Below are positions 43,004-50,794 of a stretch of 55,126 nucleotides of DNA, one piece after another. This DNA comes from Candidatus Omnitrophota bacterium (GTDB taxonomy: Bacteria; Omnitrophota; Gorgyraeia; S143-82), in contig WGAY01000078.1 of NCBI GenBank assembly GCA_015494585.1, positions 1 to 55,126 on the forward strand, in the 5' to 3' direction. Made by a program: the position numbers and the translations under genes. The notes under the pieces are model-generated. The model searched no databases. It had not been told where the DNA came from and saw only the letters and a program-made list of their open reading frames with translations. Positions within the stretch are counted from its first letter, which is position 1. Each line of letters opens with the position of its first letter.

Positions 43004-43774
43004 ATGTTCTCTAAATATGGCGAAAAAGAGGTTTCCTTTGCGATAATAGATGCCTTTTTTGAGAAGTTGAAGTCAGTAGTAGTCTCGGATGTGGTCATTG
43101 TTGGGGCAGGTCCAGCTGGTCTGGTTGCTGCCTATTATCTTTCTAAGAAGGGGAAGAAGGTAGTTTTGATTGAGAAAAACAATGCCCCTGGGGGAGGTGC
43201 CTGGTCAGGGGGGTATCTTATGAATGAGCTTACTATCCGCTATCCGGGCAATGAGGTCCTTGAGGATATGGGGCTCAAGGTCAAAGAGGTAAAAAAAGGC
43301 TTGTTTACTGCTGATGCACTTTACATATGTGCCGGACTTATAAAGAAGGCCCTGGAGACTGGAGCGGTTATTCTGAATCTTACGCTCTGTGAGGACATAA
43401 TAATGCGTAATGGCGTAATAGAGGGTGTGGTCATCAATTGGTCGCCTATCCAGTTTATGCCAAGACCAATGCGTACGCTGGATCCGATCGTGCTGGAGTC
43501 AAAGGTGGTTATAGATGCCACGGGACACGATGCCGCAGTAGCGGCAATGCTTGCCAAGAGGGGCTTGCTGGAGATAGCAGGTGAAGGGGCAATGCACATA
43601 GAGGCCTCCGAGGACCTCTTGGCAGAGAAGACAGGTAGGATATTTCCTGGTCTTTATACAGCGGGTATGTCGGTTTGTTCTGTATATGGCCTGCCAAGGA
43701 TGGGGCCTACGTTTGGCGGTATGTATGTCTCTGGAAAGATTGCAGCAGAGAAGATATTGGCTGAACTAGGCTGA
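43004..43774 (+). CDS. thi4: Thiazole synthase, Thi4 family (non-Cys, probably sulfide-dependent)
   Basis: DVVIVGAGPAGLVAAYYLSKKGKKVVLIEKNNAPGGGAWSGGYLMNEL; VVIDATGHDAAVAAMLAKRG; GLPRMGPTFGGMYVSGKIAAEKI. Confidence 0.9.
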   Translation: MFSKYGEKEVSFAIIDAFFEKLKSVVVSDVVIVGAGPAGLVAAYYLSKKGKKVVLIEKNNAPGGGAWSGGYLMNELTIRYPGNEVLEDMGLKVKEVKKGLFTADALYICAGLIKKALETGAVILNLTLCEDIIMRNGVIEGVVINWSPIQFMPRPMRTLDPIVLESKVVIDATGHDAAVAAMLAKRGLLEIAGEGAMHIEASEDLLAEKTGRIFPGLYTAGMSVCSVYGLPRMGPTFGGMYVSGKIAAEKILAELG

Positions 43775-43775
43775 T

Positions 43776-44888
43776 ATGGTCAAGAAGATCCTGCTCCTAT
43801 ATATTTCAAATATATCGGGGCACAAGAGTGCTGCCAATGCCATAGAGAAGGCAATCAATATGCTTGCGCCCTTTGCTGATGTGAAGGGGATGAATTTTTT
43901 TAATTATGTTGCCCCCATCACAGAGAAGGTAGTCAATACTATGTATATGGGGGTCATAAAGCGCGCGCCTATAATATGGCAGGTTATGTATGACAATCCC
44001 AGGGTAGTCAGATCTACCTCTCGGGCACGCAGGTTTGTATATAATCAGATAAGGAAAAAGGTCGATAGGCTTATATCTCACTATAATCCAGACGTCGTTA
44101 TAGCTACTCAGGCGTTTCCCTGTGAAATCATATCCAGATACAAGATAGAAAACTCTAAGAAATTCCGTGTCTTTGCGGTTTTAACGGATTTTGCGCCGCA
44201 CTCCTTCTGGATCTCTGAGGCGGTTGATTATTACATAGTGGCAACCGATGCAGTGAAAGACAAACTTATCAAAAAGGGCGTGCCTGAAGAGAAGGTCAAG
44301 GCATTTGGTATTCCCATAGATCCGGATTTCTACTTTAGTAAAGACTCAGTGGATATTCGAAGGCGACTAGGTATTGGGCAGGATAGGGATGTGGTTCTGC
44401 TTATGGGAGGGGGACAGGGACTCGGGCCGATAGGCAAGGTCTTGAAATCAATGGATAAGGTGGATATAGATTTTGATATTATTACCATTTGTGGAAATAA
44501 TAAGAGGTTATTCCGTTCCGTTGAGAGGAATAAAAAGAGGATGCAGCATAAGGTTTGTAATTTTGGATTTGTCGAGAATGTGGATGAATTTATGTCCATA
44601 GCGAAGGTGCTTGTGACGAAGGCCGGAGGACTTACGGTGTCTGAGGCAATGGCAAAGGGCCTTCCTATGATAATAATGAATTCCCTGCCAGGACAGGAAT
44701 ACAATAATCTGAAATTTTTATTACGCAATAGATGTGCCCTGCGGGCTGAGGACCATAAGGAGGTTCGCAGGCTTTTAGAGAGGTTATTGAGAGATGCGGC
44801 CCTGTGGGAGAGGCTTCACAAAAATTCCCTGATAACAGGCCGTCCTAATGCGGCACTAGAGGTGGCGCACCTGGCATTGGAGATGTGA
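43776..44888 (+). CDS. MGDG synthase/processive diacylglycerol glycosyltransferase-like GT28 protein
   Basis: ILLLYISNISGHKSAANAIEKAI; VLTDFAPHSFWISEAVDYYIVAT; VLLMGGGQGLGPIGKVL; VTKAGGLTVSEAMAKGLPMIIMNSLPGQEYNN. Confidence 0.87.
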   Translation: MVKKILLLYISNISGHKSAANAIEKAINMLAPFADVKGMNFFNYVAPITEKVVNTMYMGVIKRAPIIWQVMYDNPRVVRSTSRARRFVYNQIRKKVDRLISHYNPDVVIATQAFPCEIISRYKIENSKKFRVFAVLTDFAPHSFWISEAVDYYIVATDAVKDKLIKKGVPEEKVKAFGIPIDPDFYFSKDSVDIRRRLGIGQDRDVVLLMGGGQGLGPIGKVLKSMDKVDIDFDIITICGNNKRLFRSVERNKKRMQHKVCNFGFVENVDEFMSIAKVLVTKAGGLTVSEAMAKGLPMIIMNSLPGQEYNNLKFLLRNRCALRAEDHKEVRRLLERLLRDAALWERLHKNSLITGRPNAALEVAHLALEM

Positions 44889-46462
44889 TGTGGAGACTTT
44901 ATCTGTTTTGTCTTAAGAATATAAATAAGGCCCCAGGGCTTTTTCATTTTGTAGGTAGCTTGCTGGCTAGTATCAAATACTTTTTGTGTCCACCGGACAT
45001 AAGGCGTATTGTGAGGAATATCCGTCTCATTAGAGGACGGAATTATCCTATATTTAAGGCCTTCTTATTGGGACACAGGGTATTGGTCAACTTTGTCCAC
45101 TACTGGCTGGATTTTATATATTTGGGCAGAGTAGCTCCCCATCTACTGAAAGAATCTGTTGAGATAGAAGGAAGGCAATATCTGGATGAGGCACTTTCTC
45201 TGAATAAAGGCGTAATAATTGCTACTGCCCATTTTGGCAATTGGGAGATAGCGGGTTTTTGGTTAGGTGAAAATGGCTACCCTATCCAGGCAATAGCCCT
45301 GCCGCATAAGGACAAAAAGATAAATGAGTTTTTCGACTCCACTCGTGCTATGCATAATGTAAGGGTAATTCCAACGGGCAGATCCACACGCTGTATAGGG
45401 GTGCTGAAAGAAAAAGGGGCCCTAGCAATTTTAGGGGATTGGGATTTTAGTGGAGGCAAGGCAGTCCTGGATGTCGATTTCTTTGGACGCAGGGTTCTAT
45501 TTCCCTCAGGGGTGGGTGTGTTTGCCCACAGGTTTAAGGTGCCGGTAGTGCCTTTGTTTGGGATGATTGAGGCCCCTGGCCGATATAGATTGAAGGCCTT
45601 TCCCCCTATTTCACCGGAAGGCAAATCTGCCTCCGATATCCTGCAGGCCTATGTCAAGGCTCTTGAGAATGTACTGAGAGAAAGGCCCCTGCAGTGGTAT
45701 ATGTTTGGTGAGATAAGATACGCTCCGGAAGGGATAAATAAGAATGAGCTCTGTATAGTTATCCCTGCCTATAACGAAGAAAAGCACATAGGTAGCCTCT
45801 TGAATAAACTTGCGCCAACAGGGTATAAGGTCATACTTGTCGATGACGGCTCGGTGGATAAGACCTCAGAGGTAGCATCGCAGTATGAATTTGTAATCTT
45901 GCACAGGCTTTCCTGCAATGAGGGCAAAGGGGTTGCCATAAAAGAAGGGTTGGCGATTGCGAAAAAGGAAGGATTTAAGTGGGCTGTGCTTATGGATGCC
46001 GACGGACAACACCTTCCTGAGGATATCCCTTCTTTTTTGTCAAAGGCATTCTCTGATGTGGGTATGGTCTGCGGCAATAGGATGCATAATCCTGAAGGAA
46101 TGCCTTTATTAAGGAGATTGGTGAACAGGATTATGTCAGTAATAATATCTCTGTACACATTTGATTCTATCCCGGATACACAATGCGGTTACAGGCTCAT
46201 CCGCCTTTCTGCTATCGACCCGGACAAGCTAACAAGTGACCGCTATGAGATAGAAACGGATATAATCCTGCGGGTGAGAGAAGAGGGCTGGGAGATAGTT
46301 TCTACGAACATAACCTCTGTATATCACGATACGGCTGTAAGCTACATAAACCCATTCAGGGATACATTGAGATTCATCTATTTTATGTGCATGGATTTTT
46401 TGAGGAGAATAGCTAGAATGTTGTCTGGAAGACGTAGAGATGAAAGGGATGTGGGAAGGTGA
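44885..46462 (+). CDS. LpxL/HtrB-type acyltransferase fused to a GT2 glycosyltransferase
   Basis: N-half VIIATAHFGNWEIAGFWLG (HX4E), ALPHKDKKINEFFDSTR, GVFAHRFKVPVVPLFGMIE; C-half CIVIPAYNEEKHIGSLLNKLAPTGYKVILVDDGSVDKTSEVA...VLMDADGQHLPEDI. Confidence 0.88.
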   Translation: MMWRLYLFCLKNINKAPGLFHFVGSLLASIKYFLCPPDIRRIVRNIRLIRGRNYPIFKAFLLGHRVLVNFVHYWLDFIYLGRVAPHLLKESVEIEGRQYLDEALSLNKGVIIATAHFGNWEIAGFWLGENGYPIQAIALPHKDKKINEFFDSTRAMHNVRVIPTGRSTRCIGVLKEKGALAILGDWDFSGGKAVLDVDFFGRRVLFPSGVGVFAHRFKVPVVPLFGMIEAPGRYRLKAFPPISPEGKSASDILQAYVKALENVLRERPLQWYMFGEIRYAPEGINKNELCIVIPAYNEEKHIGSLLNKLAPTGYKVILVDDGSVDKTSEVASQYEFVILHRLSCNEGKGVAIKEGLAIAKKEGFKWAVLMDADGQHLPEDIPSFLSKAFSDVGMVCGNRMHNPEGMPLLRRLVNRIMSVIISLYTFDSIPDTQCGYRLIRLSAIDPDKLTSDRYEIETDIILRVREEGWEIVSTNITSVYHDTAVSYINPFRDTLRFIYFMCMDFLRRIARMLSGRRRDERDVGR

Positions 46463-46474
46463 AAGGAGGTGCTT

Positions 46475-47251
46475 ATGCTAAGAAAGACATTTCTTTTAAT
46501 TAACTTATTTTTACTAATATCAGGACCATTGACATTTGCCATGGATGCCGATGATGTGGGCTGGCTTGTATATAATAGATACGATGGTGATGATGCCTAC
46601 TACAAGATTGATATGGAGCTGGTAGATAGATCAGGTGATAGGATTAAACGGGAAATGGAGGTCTATATAAAGGATTATAATGGACTTGATAAGACCACAA
46701 TTGTATTTTTATCACCGCCCGATATAAGGGGAACGGCATTTTTATCTATAGAGAATCCCAAGGGGGCGGATAAGACTCAGTTTCTCTATCTCCCATCGCT
46801 TGGCAGGGTCAGGCGCATTACAAGCAGGCAGAAGGCCAATAGTTTCGTGAATACAGATTATAGCTATGAGGATATAGGGCGGAGGTGGCCGGCGAAAGAC
46901 AAGCATAGGCTTATTGGCGCAGAGAACATCCTCGGAAGGCCGTGTTATGTCTTGGAATCTATTCCCAAAAGGGATGGCGAAAGTCAATATTCCAAACGGA
47001 TTTGCTATATAGATAAAGAGACAGGCTTGAGCCTGAAACGTGAGTTTTTTGATAAAAAAGGAAGGAAAATCAGGGAGATGCGGGTAAATAAGATATCGGT
47101 TATTGACGGTATCCCCACAGTTATCGATTCTGAGATGATAGACCTTAGAACGGGACATAAAACAGTGATGAAAGTTAAGGAGGTACGATATAACCAAGGA
47201 CTACCTGATAAGATCTTTAGCGTTAGATATATGAAATCCCTTACTGAATGA
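46475..47251 (+). CDS. Outer-membrane lipoprotein-sorting (LolA-like) protein
   Basis: Signal peptide; DKTTIVFLSPPDIRGTAFLSIENPKGADKTQFLYLPSLGRVRRITSRQKANSFVNTDYSYEDI; RBS aaaggaggt before ATG 46475. Confidence 0.85.
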   Translation: MLRKTFLLINLFLLISGPLTFAMDADDVGWLVYNRYDGDDAYYKIDMELVDRSGDRIKREMEVYIKDYNGLDKTTIVFLSPPDIRGTAFLSIENPKGADKTQFLYLPSLGRVRRITSRQKANSFVNTDYSYEDIGRRWPAKDKHRLIGAENILGRPCYVLESIPKRDGESQYSKRICYIDKETGLSLKREFFDKKGRKIREMRVNKISVIDGIPTVIDSEMIDLRTGHKTVMKVKEVRYNQGLPDKIFSVRYMKSLTE

Positions 47252-49252: not shown

Positions 49253-50794
49253 ATGAAAAAGACAAAGAAACTACCTATAGGAGTCCAGGATTTTAGGGAG
49301 ATAAGGCAAGAAGATTATCTTTATATAGATAAGACTGAGCCGATATACAGACTCATAAGTGAGGGCAAGTATTATTTTCTCTCCCGTCCGCGTAGGTTTG
49401 GAAAAAGCCTGCTGGTATCCACGCTGAAGTACCTCTTTCAGGGTGAGAAAGAATTATTCAAGGGGCTTTATATCTATGATAAGTATGATTTCCCGAAGTA
49501 TCCGGTAATACATATGGCCTTTGGAGGAAGCAGGAGTGAGGAGAGATTGTTGAATATAATAAGGCAAAACATTGAGCGTAATAGCGATGCATTGGGGATA
49601 GAATGCCCTGACTATAAAGATGTGGCGTATTGTTTTGCCGAATTAATAGAAAAGGCCTATAAAAAATACAACCAAAAGGTTGTAATCCTGATAGACGAAT
49701 ACGATAAGCCTATCATAGACAACATAGATCAGATGGATGTAGCCAAGGAGAATCGCAATGTCTTACGCGAACTTTATACAGAGATAAAAAATAATGATCC
49801 TTATATAAAATTTGCCTTTCTGACAGGGGTGACCAAATTCTCCAAGGCAGGGATATTTTCGGGATTGAATAATCTAGAGGATATAACCCTTGAGCCAGAG
49901 TTTGGGAATCTATTAGGGATAACGCAGGCAGAATTAGAAAAGTATTTTGGCGATCTGTTCAAGGAGAACCATGTAGATTTAGAGGAAGTAAGAGAATGGT
50001 ATAACGGATATAACTTTCTGGGGGATCTGGTATATAACCCATTTGATTTATTGTTGTTCGTCAAAAAGGGCTTTAGATTTCGCAGTTACTGGTTTTCGAC
50101 GGCTACTCCTAAATTCTTGATAGATGTAATAGATAGAGGGAATTTTTATATACCAGAGATTGCGGGGTTGAGAGTAGATGAGACGTTATTAGAGAGCTTT
50201 GATATAGAAAATATGCGCCCAGAGGCGATATTATTTCAGGCGGGGTATTTGACAATAGATAAGCAGGTAATAAATGAAGAGGATGAGATAGAATATTTGT
50301 TACGATTACCGAACAAAGAAGTTAGTAGCTCCCTCTCAAAGGTATTGATAGAATATCTTGCGCAGAGCTTAAATATGGAGAAGCGCACAGGCATACACGT
50401 AGCGCTAAAACAGGGCAATGTGGATGATTTGCGGAAAGAGCTCGAATCACTATTTGCCTCACTGCCGTATCATATTCACATCAAAAATGAGATGGCAAGG
50501 CAGGAAGGCTATTATACATCGGTGATATTTGCGTATTTACAGAGCATAGCAGATAGGATAATTGGAGAAGATGTAACGAGTAAGGGAAGGGCAGATATAG
50601 TAGTAATGGTGCGGGATAAGATATATATCTTTGAGATAAAGGTAGACACAGAAGAAAGCCCGATAAAGCAGATAAAAGAGAGGCAGTATTATAAGAAGTA
50701 CGAAAATCAGAACAAGCCGATATATCTGATAGGAATAAAGATAGACAGTAAAGAGAGGAATATAGTTGGGTTTGAATGGGAGAAAAGAAACTAA
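49253..50794 (+). CDS. AAA-ATPase-like protein with C-terminal PD-(D/E)XK nuclease fold (DUF1703 type)
   Basis: LPIGVQDFREIRQEDYLYIDKTEPIYRLISEGKYYFLSRPRRFGKSLLVSTLKYLF; VVILIDEYDKPIID; GRADIVVMVRDKIYIFEIKV. Confidence 0.93.
   Translation: MKKTKKLPIGVQDFREIRQEDYLYIDKTEPIYRLISEGKYYFLSRPRRFGKSLLVSTLKYLFQGEKELFKGLYIYDKYDFPKYPVIHMAFGGSRSEERLLNIIRQNIERNSDALGIECPDYKDVAYCFAELIEKAYKKYNQKVVILIDEYDKPIIDNIDQMDVAKENRNVLRELYTEIKNNDPYIKFAFLTGVTKFSKAGIFSGLNNLEDITLEPEFGNLLGITQAELEKYFGDLFKENHVDLEEVREWYNGYNFLGDLVYNPFDLLLFVKKGFRFRSYWFSTATPKFLIDVIDRGNFYIPEIAGLRVDETLLESFDIENMRPEAILFQAGYLTIDKQVINEEDEIEYLLRLPNKEVSSSLSKVLIEYLAQSLNMEKRTGIHVALKQGNVDDLRKELESLFASLPYHIHIKNEMARQEGYYTSVIFAYLQSIADRIIGEDVTSKGRADIVVMVRDKIYIFEIKVDTEESPIKQIKERQYYKKYENQNKPIYLIGIKIDSKERNIVGFEWEKRN

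Follow-up and report, generated by a model that had tools for sequence, protein, structure and literature searches.

An LPLAT acyltransferase and a GT2 glycosyltransferase became joined into one polypeptide once, in a single Omnitrophota genus, from genes that elsewhere in the class stand separately in a conserved GT28–LPLAT–GT2 operon. The fusion is real, the motifs of both halves are intact and both are under purifying selection. The joining suggests that both enzymes serve one membrane-glycolipid pathway, which has probably not been described before. The window, by which we mean the whole analysed stretch of 55,126 nucleotides, is contig 78 of a MAG of 1.53 Mb in 80 contigs that is 94% complete. 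Members of Omnitrophota have yet to be cultured; they are widespread and mostly ultra-small, and some are thought to depend on a host (PMC10066038). The terms lipid, lipopolysaccharide and LPS are absent from the main text of that survey (PMC10066038).

The fused gene and its single origin

The gene and its principal features are located as follows.

44885-46462, + strand: fused LPLAT–GT2 gene, 525 aa, GTG start, single uninterrupted frame
45083-45706, + strand: LPLAT domain PF03279 (Pfam), residues 67-274; nearest solved relative PatA
45230-45247, + strand: HX4E motif HFGNWE, residues 116-121; H116 corresponds to PatA H126 and E121 to PatA D131
45437-45439, + strand: codon of D185, aligned with the charge-relay carboxylate E200 of PatA; conservation 98% among 72 relatives
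45707-45751, + strand: domain junction, residues 275-289, without a dedicated linker
45752-46216, + strand: GT2 domain PF00535, residues 290-444; nearest solved relative dolichol-phosphate mannose synthase (DPMS)
45995-46012, + strand: DADGQH, including the DxD motif, residues 371-376; D371, D373, Q375 and H376 100% conserved in 73 relatives

An earlier note on this DNA had described a 525-aa polypeptide combining the two enzymes, and its coordinates, length and quoted motifs are all confirmed, including IPAYNEEKHIG (residues 293-303) and VDDGSVDKTSE (residues 319-329). Both Pfam assignments are far above chance level: PF03279 scores 96.8 bits on the N-terminal half against a curated cut-off of 22.3 (E 1.8e-27), and PF00535 scores 91.5 bits on the C-terminal half against 23.3 (E 7.6e-26), covering positions 1-164 of a 168-position profile. 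The joining of the two domains added almost no linker. W271 and P294 are 22 residues apart in the fusion, and the separate genes have a median LPLAT tail of 10 residues and a median GT2 head of 10. Hydrophobicity peaks at a 19-residue Kyte-Doolittle mean of 1.36, too low to mark a clear transmembrane helix anywhere in the protein, as would suit a peripheral membrane enzyme. An AlphaFold2 prediction made with three sequences gave a model too poor for domain placement (mean pLDDT 54.8, pTM 0.42). An internal start yielding a separate GT2 product was considered and set aside as unlikely, as the sole start-like codon before the GT2 domain common to the four fused genes is an ATG within the conserved LPLAT motif QW(Y/F)MF.

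A misassembly or frameshift that merged two genes, which the fragmentation of the source MAG might favour, is exceedingly improbable, and we reject it because the congeners carry the same fused frame. Each of the four genomes sampled from the genus carries the intact frame; these are independent MAGs with an identical junction, and the three relatives (89, 64 and 60% identical) contain no internal stop; the doubt over assembly raised in the earlier note was thus settled in favour of the fusion. Comparison of the window with its 89% relative gave dN/dS ratios of 0.070 (LPLAT half), 0.067 (GT2 half) and 0.053 (GT28 gene upstream), and values of about 0.07 in both halves indicate that purifying selection acts on each of them.

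The LPLAT–GT2 fusion arose once, in one Omnitrophota genus. In the tree, the fused LPLATs form one clade with support of 100/100, which fits one origin. The fused arrangement is the derived state, and the class-wide operon with separate genes is the ancestral one. Independent fusions elsewhere in the phylum were tried as candidates and rejected: full-length matches in other genomes all contained stop codons, and the loci that were read, including those with unusually long frames (L094-L098), held separate genes. None of the other loci inspected in the class or the phylum carried the fusion. A contig scan of the genome collection with the fusion, which detects close relatives only, matched the congeners alone, and plasmid records, searched for the LPLAT-first order outside Omnitrophota, contained no match that spanned 80% of the query. 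The search outside Omnitrophota was narrow, and the LPLAT-first fusion may also occur elsewhere.

A conserved three-gene operon

The unit to which the fusion belongs begins with a GT28 gene that was absent from the earlier account of the fusion. This gene and the one downstream of the fusion are located as follows.

43776-44888, + strand: GT28-type lipid glycosyltransferase gene, with MGDG_synth (PF06925) and GT28 C-terminal domains; first gene of the conserved unit
46469-47251, + strand: gene for a LolA_like protein (PF17131) of the periplasmic lipoprotein-carrier type, downstream of the fusion and separated from it by 6 nt

The GT28 gene belongs to one unit with the fusion. It overlaps the start of the fused gene by 4 nt, and the overlap is equal in two congeners. 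Matches at E 1e-30 or better were found in 347 of the 384 genomes of the class. Elsewhere in the class, LPLAT and GT2 are separate, adjacent genes on the same strand in nearly all loci examined, many of them overlapping or lying a few nucleotides apart, and a GT28 gene of the MGDG-synthase type sits directly upstream of LPLAT in 38 of 41 loci. A few genomes from other Omnitrophota classes have the LPLAT and GT2 pair as well; in one of them (G385) all three genes are adjacent and separate. That the three-gene unit is kept in nearly all sampled families of the class makes an envelope glycolipid worth seeking there, and the fusion in one genus offers natural support for treating the LPLAT and GT2 steps as a pair. 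A literature search for a GT28–LPLAT–GT2 operon found no description, which is a weak sign of novelty.

The remaining neighbours of the operon are housekeeping genes that differ between families. The LolA_like protein is a possible transport partner of the operon product; near the operon, its gene had no match in the other 40 loci. The gene immediately before GT28, at 43004-43774 of the window, encodes a Thi4-type thiazole synthase (TIGR00292, 244.6 bits against 148.3) and adjoins the operon in one congener only (locus L028). The LolA_like, Thi4 and fructose-6-phosphate aldolase neighbours were rejected as parts of the system because relatives do not keep them next to the operon. Two congeners have RseP as the next gene after the fusion and then IspG, with UppS further on. 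Positions 49253-50794 of the window carry an accessory-type gene amid housekeeping genes, with AAA-ATPase_like (PF09820) and PD-(D/E)XK nuclease (PF08011) domains.

Residues, relatives and the proposed pathway

Both halves of the fusion look active, judging from their residues. In the LPLAT half, H116, E121 and D185 are each 98% conserved in 72 Omnitrophota LPLATs, and in the GT2 half, D320, D321, D371, D373, Q375, H376, D431, Q433, C434 and G435 are 97-100% conserved in 73 proteins; the loss of catalytic residues that the earlier note had considered has therefore not taken place. Alignment to PatA further pairs Y73 with Y83 and R154 with R164, and the change from E200 to D185 is conservative. 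In PatA, which acylates a mannose of a glycolipid, the essential residues are H126 and E200; D131 is believed to have a structural role, and binding of the PIM2 acceptor is predicted for E149, R164 and H284 (PMC4792965). E149 and H284 are replaced by L139 and Y272 in the fusion. With the catalytic residues kept and these two changed, the LPLAT half would retain the chemistry of PatA with a different acceptor pocket. The fusion scores 81.1 bits on the PatA equivalog model PRK07920, below its cut-off of 209. The GT28 protein is closest to a processive diacylglycerol glucosyltransferase (9wde, E 6e-42) and then to MGDG synthase (4wyi, E 1e-36), and it falls short of the equivalog cut-off (228.7 against 500).

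Because the LPLAT half is nearest to PatA, the GT28 protein is nearest to diacylglycerol glucosyltransferase and MGDG synthase, and the operon is conserved, the reading we favour, with roughly even confidence, is that the fusion is a two-domain enzyme on the cytoplasmic membrane face and that the operon builds one acylated glycolipid. According to this model, the GT28 enzyme, of the UgtP/MGDG-synthase type, would add the first sugar to diacylglycerol or a comparable lipid. The GT2 half would attach another sugar, and the LPLAT half, like PatA, would move an acyl chain onto a sugar hydroxyl of the same glycolipid. The fusion, formed end to end from the second and third genes of the old class-wide operon, would hold two consecutive steps together at 1:1 stoichiometry with their chemistry unchanged. 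A single enzyme may, as the earlier note proposed, both acylate and glycosylate one lipid. For the fusion, we infer the membrane side, the shared substrate, the order of steps and the acyl and sugar donors from sequence and gene order. A more far-reaching form of the proposal, which we put forward tentatively, is that the operon represents a glycolipid pathway, so far undescribed and near-universal in the sampled class, whose product is a major envelope lipid with an acylated sugar, and that the fused polypeptide glycosylates and acylates one lipid consecutively.

The GT2 half resembles polyprenyl-phosphate sugar synthases, and it may therefore glycosylate polyprenyl phosphate instead of the GT28 product. 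Its nearest solved structures are DPMS and ArnC-type enzymes, and its best curated models are AglJ (87.9 bits) and PpgS (76.6 bits). If the GT2 half were a synthase of this kind making a lipid-linked sugar donor, and the LPLAT half acylated a different molecule, the fusion would be a co-location like that of Ppm1 in Mycobacterium tuberculosis, which took the same evolutionary path from adjacent genes to one ORF (PMC3460810). Of the genes that follow the fusion in two congeners, RseP, IspG and later UppS, several serve polyprenol supply. However, the cut-offs of both curated models (325 and 370 bits, respectively) are missed widely, the window contains no UppS/IspG neighbourhood, and the GT2 domain of ApeJ, thought to act on a lipid anchor, aligns with the GT2 half at least as well. 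We regard this alternative as unlikely but deserving of serious weight.

A role in lipid A or core LPS, with the LPLAT half as a late acyltransferase (LpxL/LpxM) and the GT2 half as a core sugar transferase, appears improbable. PF03279 is the lipid A acyltransferase family, and the genome encodes LpxC and LpxK, which suggests that lipid A is probably made. The LpxL/HtrB-type label that the earlier note had applied needs correction: the LPLAT half is closer to PatA (E 9e-14) than to a solved lipid A acyltransferase (E 4.5e-8), and it scores far under every LpxL/LpxM cut-off, with 38.6 bits against 297.8 for LpxL/LpxP (TIGR02207) and 25.3 against 336 for LpxM (TIGR02208). In addition, the fusion is unlinked to lpx genes, and the GT28 protein upstream is of the diacylglycerol-glycosyltransferase type. 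It is instead an LPLAT–ELM1 protein that adjoins LpxK, class-wide, and the genome holds a third LPLAT; the LPLAT fused to ELM1 is a candidate for lipid A acylation, which counts in favour of a glycolipid role for the LPLAT–GT2 fusion.

In this genome, the LPLAT–ELM1 (PF06258) fusion comprises 576 aa and lies directly downstream of LpxK (contig 41 of the MAG, L003:1507-3237). ELM1 was present in 57 of 59 Omnitrophota relatives, nearly always within a frame of 570-718 aa, and 28 ORFs among 31 ELM1-bearing loci checked (one counted twice; L003, L116-L145; phmmer) contained both domains. The ELM1-like KdoT of Acinetobacter baumannii is a Kdo transferase (PMC12856342), so LPLAT–ELM1 may combine sugar-transferase and acyltransferase functions for lipid A assembly throughout the class, and could be of greater interest than the LPLAT–GT2 fusion. 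The third LPLAT is a stand-alone protein of 293 aa (contig 80, L002:1447-2328), in which the HX4D/E motif reads HYSNFT, with T replacing D/E. Several MMPL/RND proteins are also encoded elsewhere in the genome.

An ApeJ-like enzyme for an aryl-polyene or flexirubin-type pigment lipid is very improbable: ApeJ contains both domains, each alignable to the fusion, and aryl-polyene clusters also include a gene like the LolA_like one downstream (PMC8253772), but the domain order is opposite, the LolA_like gene is not conserved, no PKS-type genes lie beside the fusion, and the whole genome has one ketoacyl synthase against three annotated in the CFT073 cluster. This single ketoacyl synthase rules out an aryl-polyene pathway in practice, unless its genes lie in the missing 6% of the MAG, and it bears out the earlier expectation that PKS-type genes are absent nearby and that the substrate is something other than an aryl polyene.

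Comparison with known systems

ApeJ of Escherichia coli CFT073 (c1194) likewise joins GT2 and LPLAT in one polypeptide and is proposed to attach a lipid to an anchor (PMC8253772). By BLASTP, one half aligns with the fusion at 29% identity over 236 aa (E 1e-23) and the other at 23% (E 1e-6), so the aryl-polyene comparison drawn in the earlier note holds as an analogy. However, in ApeJ the GT2 domain is N-terminal and the LPLAT domain C-terminal, and its LPLAT half has no PF03279 match at E 0.001, whereas that of the fusion has a strong one. The ApeJ cluster includes genes for ketoacyl synthases, ACPs, MMPL and LolA and no GT28, while the fusion has GT28 upstream. The reversed order and different gene context indicate that ApeJ is an analogue and not the same fusion.

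The nearest solved relatives of the GT28 gene are the processive diacylglycerol glucosyltransferase UgtP/YpfP and plant MGDG synthase, which are not known to be accompanied by LPLAT and GT2 genes in their organisms. PatA has in common with the LPLAT half the catalytic His, the acidic relay residue, Y83 and R164 (PMC4792965); it differs in standing alone, whereas the fused half is joined to GT2, and in the two acceptor residues described above. VexE of the Vi antigen system acylates a sugar at C-6 and not another acyl chain, like the role proposed here, which demonstrates that LPLAT enzymes are able to acylate sugar directly (PMC9597891). It is combined with a TPR domain and acts on UDP-GlcNAc, while the fusion is combined with GT2.

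Ppm1 (Rv2051c) of M. tuberculosis has, like the fusion, an N-terminal acyltransferase and a C-terminal DPMS-like GT2, and its relatives keep adjacent separate genes (PMC3460810). Its acyltransferase is Lnt, its GT2 makes polyprenyl-phosphate-mannose and there is no GT28, in contrast to the LPLAT and upstream GT28 described here; Pfam found no Lnt or CN_hydrolase match in the N-terminal domain of the fusion. The two halves of Ppm1 catalyse reactions on different molecules (PMC3460810), and a conserved neighbourhood or fusion is therefore a sign of functional linkage and not proof of a common substrate. In its domain arrangement and history, Ppm1 is the best evolutionary parallel to the LPLAT–GT2 fusion.
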